From Eubacteriaceae bacterium ES3 (GTDB lineage: Bacteria > Bacillota > Clostridia > Eubacteriales > Eubacteriaceae): a stretch of DNA of 64,000 nt. How positions within the stretch are numbered: the first letter of the stretch is position 1; every line of letters begins with the position of its first letter. Of this stretch, positions 42,982 through 44,028 are shown piece by piece. The DNA lies in the NCBI GenBank assembly GCA_030586155.1, contig CP130741.1, positions 186,001-250,000 on the forward strand, written 5' to 3'. Both the position numbers and the translations under genes were made by a program. Under the pieces are notes generated by a model, which was given only the letters and a program-made list of their open reading frames with translations, was not told where the DNA came from and did no database searches.

Positions 42982-44028
42982 ATGGTCGATATGACAAATG
43001 TAGTCCAGTTAGTTTTAGATTTTCTCAGTCAGTTTGATGCGAAAACTTTAATCCTTGCCGGTTCTGCCATTGGGGCAGGTTTTGCCATGATTGCCGGGAT
43101 TGGCCCGGGAATTGGTCAGGGCTTTGCCGCAGGAAAAGGTGCTGAAGCTGTTGGTAAAAATCCCGCTGCTTCAAAGGATGTAATTTCCACAATGCTATTG
43201 GGAGCTGCTGTAGCCGAAACCTCAGGGATTTTGGCACTGGTAGTAGCATTAATTCTGTTGTTTGCCAATCCATTAGTGGATGCAACTGGCAGTATGTGGA
43301 TTCTGGCCGCTTCAGGGATTGGAGCCGGACTTTCAATGATCGCCGGGATTGGACCCGGGATTGGACAGGGATTCGCTGCCGGAAAAGCTGCAGAAGGTGT
43401 TGGAAATCGTCTGGAAGCTAAAAGCATCATTTCAAGAGTAATGTTTCTTGGTCAGGCTGTTGCTCAGACCACTGGGATTTATGCCTTGATTGTTTCACTT
43501 GTTCTGATGTATGCAAATCCATTAACAAAAATGGATGGTGCGGTCGGAATTTTAGCTGCTTCGGCAATTGGCGCCGGACTTGCCATGATTGCGGGAATCG
43601 GACCTGGTATTGGACAAGGCTTTGCTGCTGGTAAAGGAGCAGAAGCGGTAGGAAAAAACCCTCGGACATCCAAGGATGTTATTGCAACAATGCTTTTAGG
43701 GGCTGCGGTAGCTGAAACATCAGGGATTCTGGCTTTGGTAGTAGCATTAATTCTGTTATTTGCCAATCCACTAGTGTCACTGACAGGCAGTGTCTGGATT
43801 TTATCAGCGTCAGCAATTGCCAGTGGATGTGCCATGATCGCAGGGATTGGACCTGGAATTGGTCAGGGATTTGCGGCCGGAAAATCGGCAGAAGGTGTCG
43901 GGCTTAGACCTGAAACTAAAAATCTGACCAACAGAGTTATGTTTCTTGGTCAGGCTGTTGCCCAGACAACTGGGATTTATGCCCTGATTATTGCGCTTGT
44001 ATTAATGTATGCAAATCCATTTATCTAG
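42982..44028 (+). CDS. atpE1: ATP synthase rotor subunit c1, four-hairpin form
   Basis: 348 residues made of four c-type hairpins (eight membrane helices). Each keeps [11 protein letters not shown] in its first helix (Gln46, 129, 212, 295). The second-helix ion-site residue alternates: E79, Q162, E245, Q328, spaced exactly 83 residues. Hairpins 1 and 3 read AVAETSGIL; 2 and 4 read AVAQTTGIY. The A. woodii c1 is a two-hairpin protein with one site; this one is a doubled version with two sites. The two halves differ at many silent positions, so it is not an assembly duplication. GGAGG precedes the ATG. Confidence 0.93.

Follow-up and report, generated by a model that had tools for sequence, protein, structure and literature searches.

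A four-hairpin c1 rotor subunit with alternating Glu and Gln sites in an Acetobacterium F-type ATP synthase operon, and related c genes with one to six hairpins

In chemiosmotic bioenergetics, the number of ions paid per ATP is a central quantity, and the size of the rotor ring is commonly seen as the means of altering it. A gene of Eubacteriaceae bacterium ES3 raises the question of what becomes of this number when one rotor chain carries four hairpins and two of them have Gln in place of the ion-binding Glu. We analyzed the gene within a window of 64,000 nucleotides (GCA_030586155.1, contig CP130741.1, positions 186,001 to 250,000), and nucleotide positions below count from the first letter of this window unless they are given with a locus (L number). 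Our preferred reading, to which we assign roughly two chances in three, is a lengthened c1 that forms part of the hybrid rotor ring of an F1FO ATP synthase coupled to Na+, leading to fewer Na+ per turn.

The c1 gene is a single open reading frame of 348 aa containing four c-type hairpins (H1 to H4). Pfam assigned four PF00137 stretches to it (E 4.3e-54; 181.1 bits against a curated cut-off of 24), and direct translation placed the ion sites E79, Q162, E245 and Q328 exactly 83 residues apart, in agreement with what the first-pass annotation had claimed. Each hairpin also has one helix-1 GIGQG motif (residues 43, 126, 209 and 292) with the same spacing of 83, and the DNA copies within the gene are spaced by 249 nt. 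The ligand letters Q...ET, read from the sequence only, are present in H1 and H3 and mark them as putative Na+ sites. The fifth residue past the ion site is Leu in H1 and H3 and Tyr in H2, H4, c2 and c3. The features of the locus are as follows, with the source of each assignment in brackets.

41584..41886, plus strand: ATPase_gene1 small protein (PF09527), operon head (Pfam)
41864..42256, plus strand: atpI, ATP synthase I chain (PF03899) (Pfam)
42295..42957, plus strand: atpB, stator subunit a (PF00119) (ORF, Pfam)
42982..44028, plus strand: c1 rotor subunit gene, four hairpins, 34.2 kDa (ORF, Pfam, translation)
42982..43038, plus strand: c1 N-terminal extension, residues 1-19, common to A. 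woodii c1, with a low-confidence modelled helix 5-16 (alignment, model)
43039..43278, plus strand: hairpin 1, N-type, E79 codon 43216-43218 (profile parse, translation)
43285..43524, plus strand: hairpin 2, C-type, Q162 codon 43465-43467 (profile parse, translation)
43534..43776, plus strand: hairpin 3, N-type, E245 codon 43714-43716 (profile parse, translation)
43780..44025, plus strand: hairpin 4, C-type, Q328 codon 43963-43965 (profile parse, translation)
44062..44310, plus strand: c2, single hairpin, Glu site, 82 aa, 8.13 kDa (ORF, Pfam, translation)
44343..44591, plus strand: c3, protein identical to c2 (ORF, translation)
44635..49969, plus strand: remaining F-type operon, b, delta, alpha, gamma, beta, epsilon (ORF, Pfam)

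Pfam searches of the neighbours of c1 identified subunits a, b, delta, alpha, gamma, beta and epsilon, so that the F-type atp operon is complete. Within it c1 sits between atpB and the two single-hairpin c genes, and its start codon lies 24 nt beyond the end of the atpB frame (42957). AtpI has been described as required for c-ring assembly in A. woodii (PMC8904574). Seven PF00137 matches were detected in the strain's own genome. Four of them fall in c1, c2 and c3 account for one apiece, and the seventh belongs to an A/V-type operon at another place, so that c1 to c3 are the only F-type c genes found in this genome. The separate A/V-type ATPase operon (L232, 4182-10399, minus strand; genome region 2199000-2213000) has a K subunit of 148 aa with one hairpin; its other subunit names are our own reading of the sequences. 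The strain thus carries two rotary ATPases.

Tandem repeats are prone to mis-assembly, and we therefore weighed an assembly or sequencing artefact as the source of the four hairpins. The hairpin copies proved to be just 57-75% alike in register, with DNA identities of 73.5% for H1-H3 and 74.7% for H2-H4 and a longest exact common run of 22-23 nt. The same gene architecture occurs in an independent MAG (G012, locus L031, JASGLP010000016.1; 98% aa identity), and four-hairpin genes with the site order EQEQ or EQQQ (E for Glu, Q for Gln) were found in at least seven genomes of four families. These observations make an artefact practically negligible as an explanation. A recent duplication, tried as another candidate, was ruled out by the far-diverged silent sites of the window gene, with pS 0.675 and dS 1.73 for H1-H3 and pS 0.518 and dS 0.88 for H2-H4. 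The corresponding within-gene dS values of the MAG are 2.88 and 2.02. The silent-site values, the common runs of at most 23 nt and the MAG together bear out the first-pass statement that the doubling is real and not recent.

Between the window c1 and the MAG c1, dN/dS is 0.016 over 350 codons (dS 0.64). Every hairpin shows a value of 0.018 or less, which indicates that both Gln hairpins are under selective retention. Such strong purifying selection across all four hairpins argues against a minor or silent gene, that is, a c1 that is little translated while most rings consist of c2/c3, at a ratio of about 3.67 for 11 hairpins. This explanation draws slight support from a longer gap between AGGAGG and the start codon, by sequence count 10 nt in c1 against 8 nt in c2 and c3. 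Since c1 is described as present in the A. woodii ring (PMC8904574), we consider a silent c1 very improbable.

AlphaFold2 modelling of c1, run on five sequences, gave five models with pLDDT from 74 down to 30; the best of them, of only moderate confidence (pLDDT 74, pTM 0.73), has four helical hairpins and an N-terminal helix at residues 5-16, the first residues of which are below 50 pLDDT. In a Foldseek search, 4bem_J was the sole match at E ≤1e-3 (4.7e-10), and VIA-align superposed it with a Z of 12.0 and an rmsd of 4.2 over 182 residues. Two designed helical repeat proteins scored higher in VIA-align (Z 13.9 and 13.3, rmsd 5.5 and 7.4). The predicted model supports four hairpins as agreement rather than proof, and adds little beyond the sequence.

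We inspected the c1 open reading frames of 19 genomes of the genus, which is Acetobacterium because the c1 of one member (G017) equals A. woodii c1 (4bem_J) in 182/182 residues. Four hairpins in the order EQEQ were found in two genomes (G000, G012) and two hairpins (EQ) in four (G017, G007, G002, G008). Had all Acetobacterium c1 carried four hairpins, the first-pass annotation would have given up its claim of novelty; only 2/19 genomes have them. Eight genomes (G001, G004, G010, G011, G013, G015, G016, G018) have a single hairpin behind a c1-like N-terminal extension. In three (G003, G005, G014) the matches listed comprise a pair of plain c genes but lack a c1, and two genomes with completeness of 86 and 81% gave no match (G006 and G009, respectively). 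Within the genus the number of dead hairpins in c1 thus ranges from 0 in the single-hairpin type through 1 in the A. woodii type to 2 in the window type, and a c-ring difference inside it has already been remarked on in the literature.

The single-hairpin c1 of the eight genomes (L007-L014) combine a c1-like start with a c2-like hairpin and seem to have lost the dead hairpin; from their sequences they look like recombinants with a c1 start and a c2 end. In the protein tree, the two that were included (G001, G010) group with c2. In the DNA tree of the genus, which holds 12 loci, the first hairpin of c1 has those of G001, G004, G011 and G013 as neighbours, whereas G010 and G018 have theirs placed with their own c2.

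Searches beyond the genus used the window protein as the query; matching loci were fetched and their hairpins parsed with a profile. The surveys comprised 67 genomes of the order and draws of 391 from the class, 148 from the order of G133 and 398 from the phylum, in total about 950 distinct genomes (1,064 genome searches with overlaps), plus two MAG loci (L032, L033). Because the class and phylum surveys and that of the order of G133 were draws, and only best matches were listed, the multi-hairpin counts are lower bounds. Parsed multi-hairpin genes occurred in at least 12/67 genomes of the order, 12/391 of the class, 67/148 of the order of G133 and 14/398 of the phylum, these sets overlapping. 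This amounted to at least 101 multi-hairpin F-type c genes with two to six hairpins in at least 96 genomes. To regard the four-hairpin c1 as a single oddity was therefore too narrow, since the family spans one to six hairpins.

When each genome was scored by its first multi-hairpin gene, the patterns among the matches listed were EQ in 69 genomes, EQQ in 11, EQEQ in 4, EQQQ in 3, EQQQQ in 2, EEQ in 2, EE in 2, and EQEEQ and EQEQEQ in 1 each; one further genome (G445) has EQEQE in a gene cut by the contig end. Two EQ genes lie side by side in G388, G504 and G656; G509 and G497 have both an EQQ and an EQ gene. An F-type atpB was found upstream, save in G473, G917 and G833, where the stretch held no match; in G509 and G497 it lies behind the extra EQQ gene. 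The fetched stretches of G053, G054, G445, G653, G688, G939 and G743 held no single-hairpin c.

Several of these loci deserve mention on their own. Two MAGs from sheep rectum and goat cecum (RGIG6420 and RGIG1899; L032 and L033, each 3365-4738) carry a five-hairpin EQQQQ c1 with four adjacent acid-free hairpins, followed by a single-hairpin c with Glu. A six-hairpin F-type c1 (EQEQEQ, 538-aa frame) is present in G133 (L140, 2765-4378, minus strand), for which Pfam, independently of the profile parse, also reported six PF00137 stretches; G445, which shares its genus code, has a gene with a similar start. An extra EQQ c gene precedes atpI in G509 and G497 (L198, 964-1776; L199, 1231-2166), whose operons already have EQ and c2. 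Two genomes (G054, L118; G053, L119) have a two-hairpin F-type c with EE, and a separate c2 is absent from the fetched stretch. EQ c1 also occurs in a distant class of the phylum (genus g356, family f140; L253, L254, L256, L262, L263, L264). In four of the six g356 genomes (G653, G939, G688, G743), c2 is missing from the fetched stretch and a single-hairpin match lies farther away; G939 has it on a different contig, the other three on the contig of c1.

The site letters follow a strict order. Among the matches listed, the first site is Glu in 101/101 multi-hairpin genes and the last is Gln in 98/101, the exceptions being the two EE genes and the cut G445 gene. The 43 inner sites comprise 32 Gln and 11 Glu, and every lost site in these 101 genes is Gln, with no other residue at any site. 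A first site that is always Glu, a last site that is Gln in 98/101 and losses that are always to Gln point to a kept role rather than decay. The fifth residue past the site, among the same matches, is Leu in 84/101 first hairpins (Phe in 15, Tyr in 2) and Tyr in 132/138 single hairpins and 95/98 last Gln hairpins. The first-pass annotation had drawn attention to Leu in place of Tyr in H1 and H3; its letters are correct, but the feature is not peculiar to this gene and is a general mark of c1 Glu hairpins.

These counts also bear on the possibility that the long c1 serves as an assembly staple, which seeds the ring, sets its size and nucleates assembly, the Gln sites being a tolerated side effect. 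In its favour, c1 comes first in the c cluster and has its own N-terminal helix, a single-hairpin c follows it in 89/96 genomes among the matches listed, the N-terminal extension is retained even in the single-hairpin c1 of the eight Acetobacterium genomes, and the EEQ forms gain a hairpin without an additional dead site. A staple has no need for Gln at the last hairpin or at three-quarters of the inner sites, as tallied above, and we therefore regard this role as unlikely, if worth keeping in view.

We then examined the origin of the hairpins with trees. The first hairpin tree had 108 rows from 32 of the parsed loci, the second had 86 rows after eight of those loci and the three L032 inner hairpins were left out, and the tree for the AU tests omitted the same eight loci and all of L032. 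The first two trees separate two types of hairpin. First hairpins are N-type, as are inner hairpins of EQQ and EQQQ (and of EQQQQ in the 108-row tree); c2 is C-type, together with Gln hairpins at the end of an EQ pair or of a chain. H1 and H3 of the window c1 are N-type and H2 and H4 are C-type, which identifies it as an EQ unit in duplicate. One clade (99/90) unites the Acetobacterium Gln hairpins from two- and four-hairpin c1, H2 and H4 among them. A tandem duplication of a two-hairpin EQ c1 within the genus is the most likely origin of the window c1. In the DNA tree, H1 of the two-hairpin c1 in G007 pairs with the window H1 (94/91), as expected if G007 had lost two hairpins. Holding H1 and H3 together, which corresponds to a gain in the window lineage, was not rejected (p 0.097), nor was G007 H2 with H4 (p 0.408).

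Five AU tests on hairpins were completed on one tree, under a model without mixture and with uncorrected p values. Holding together the four H1 hairpins of the EQEQ genes, those of the window type and those of G463 and G487 from another family, was rejected (p 0.016); for H3 of these genes the p value was 0.043, and for H2 it was 0.061, not rejected. A single four-hairpin ancestor of both EQEQ groups is thus disfavoured by H1 and H3, and, as judged from sequence, EQEQ likely arose at least twice by independent duplication. Inner Gln hairpins group with Glu-bearing N-type first hairpins in both trees, as would be expected if the acid had been lost a second time in them. A single origin of all Gln hairpins (p 0.208) and the holding together of inner Gln hairpins (p 0.281) were not rejected. 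Parsimony counted 2 Glu/Gln changes on the 86-row tree and 3 when the tree was built without the column of the ion site.

Under the lengthened-c1 reading, one c1 chain would cross the membrane eight times and occupy four hairpin places of the c ring, and c2/c3 would occupy the remaining places. H1 and H3 would contribute the Glu and the helix-1 Gln of a Na+ site; H2 and H4, in which Gln replaces Glu, would pass the stator without an ion, so that each c1 would mean two fewer Na+ per turn. The A. woodii ring is described with a c2/3:c1 ratio of 9:1 (PMC8904574) and with 10 Na+ sites, giving 3.3 Na+ per ATP (PMC7793690), and for C. aceticum the literature holds that the second c1 hairpin lacks the ability to bind ions (PMC7911925). 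If the ring kept the A. woodii number of 11 hairpins, there made up of nine c2/3 and a two-hairpin c1, and contained one window c1, it would have 9 sites and 3.0 Na+ per ATP. Here we infer Na+ use, the presence of c1 in the ring, its single copy, the ring size and the lower ratio; c1 may also be scarce or the ring larger, which would count against the reading, and a 12-hairpin ring with one window c1 gives 3.33 again. Compared with 3.33, a ratio of 3.0 yields more ATP per Na+ but requires about 11% higher sodium-motive force. The point of the first-pass annotation that the ratio matters to a cell near the energy limit is an argument made in the literature (PMC7911925).

Applied to an 11-hairpin ring that holds a single c1, the same arithmetic yields 3.33 Na+ per ATP for EQ and EEQ, 3.0 for EQQ, EQEQ and EQEEQ, 2.67 for EQQQ and EQEQEQ, and 2.33 for EQQQQ. 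Since EEQ and EE occur in two genomes each among the matches listed, lengthening is not always about the ion-to-ATP ratio. A changed ratio might also be used in the other direction, with dead hairpins favouring ATP-driven Na+ pumping to a steeper gradient, in a V-type-like manner, over more ATP per ion. Some V-type c/K subunits have reached two hairpins per ion by duplication and ligand loss (PMC2359735), and the separate A/V-type ATPase of this strain could allow two enzymes to split tasks. However, the c1-bearing A. woodii enzyme is capable of ATP synthesis, according to the title of Fritz and Mueller 2007, and the same ratio change thermodynamically serves both directions, so that a pump adaptation differs from the lengthened c1 only in the direction used. 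We consider it rather improbable.

More broadly, and tentatively, at somewhat less than even odds, dead hairpins may be an evolutionary gear: in lineages of this phylum, hairpins would be recombined into and out of c1, giving 0 to 4 Gln sites and about 3.7 to about 2.3 Na+ per ATP (11 hairpins, one c1). Rings with EQQQ or EQQQQ would then move three or four successive dead hairpins past the stator and so turn by roughly one third with no ion step. We know of no characterised rotary ATPase in which about a third of the turn lacks one. In EQEQ the alternation separates the dead sites, whereas in EQQQ and EQQQQ three or four are consecutive, and such runs test how an ion-driven rotor passes positions without ion binding. 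Rotor proteins of two to six copies, common in related bacteria, may let each species set the ions paid per ATP. The series of 0 to 2 dead hairpins in one genus, and up to 4 in other families, opens to direct test the old question of whether hybrid rotors serve to alter the ion-to-ATP ratio.

With respect to known systems, two-hairpin F-type c1 (A. woodii, C. aceticum) and A/V-type K subunits with three and 13 hairpins are already known. Chains of three to six hairpins with varying Glu/Gln order appear new for F-type c subunits among the literature searched, in which, with subscription journals outside its coverage, we found none that reported an F-type c chain longer than two hairpins. Brandt and Mueller reportedly surveyed hybrid rotors in 2015, and longer c1 may have been noted there. 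To our knowledge, A/V-type K subunits do not share an F-type ring with single-hairpin c. Those of Enterococcus hirae, Methanocaldococcus jannaschii and Methanopyrus kandleri, with 2, 3 or 13 hairpins, resemble the window c1 in having tandem-duplicated hairpins in one chain, with ligands lost in some; they are part of A/V-type ATPases, however, and M. kandleri is described as retaining all 13 sites (PMC2359735). Clostridium aceticum likewise has its own c1 and c2 genes, with Glu in the first c1 hairpin and Gln in the second; its enzyme is described as Na+-dependent (PMC7911925), a property that we also expect of the window enzyme. Unlike the operon studied here, it has two c1 hairpins and one c2 gene instead of two.

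We compared the window c1 with the defining features of PF00137, the F-type operon, the A. woodii-type hybrid-rotor c1 and the A/V-type K subunit. It lies in an F-type operon and the genome's A/V-type K is another gene, which sets it apart from the last of these. Among solved structures, its best sequence match is the c1 of A. woodii, a V-type-like subunit of the hybrid FO ring (4bem_J, E 8e-71), aligned from residue 5 and 69% identical over 180 columns. Both genes lie in an F-type operon between atpB and c2/c3 (G017 for A. woodii), and both proteins have the N-terminal extension, a first hairpin with E79 and the helix-1 Gln, and Q162 in the second hairpin; Gln in the last hairpin and adjacent c2/c3 are likewise present in the window. 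Five residues after the Glu, A. woodii c1 has Phe and the window c1 has Leu. A. woodii c1 has 182 aa and two hairpins with one Glu site (E, Q in 4bem_J and G017), as the first-pass annotation stated, whereas the window c1 has 348 aa and four hairpins with two Glu and two Gln; translation and alignment accordingly uphold its description as a doubled A. woodii-type c1. With four hairpins and two Glu sites in place of exactly two hairpins and one ion site, the window c1 is a variant, rather than a plain member, of the A. woodii-type hybrid-rotor c1.
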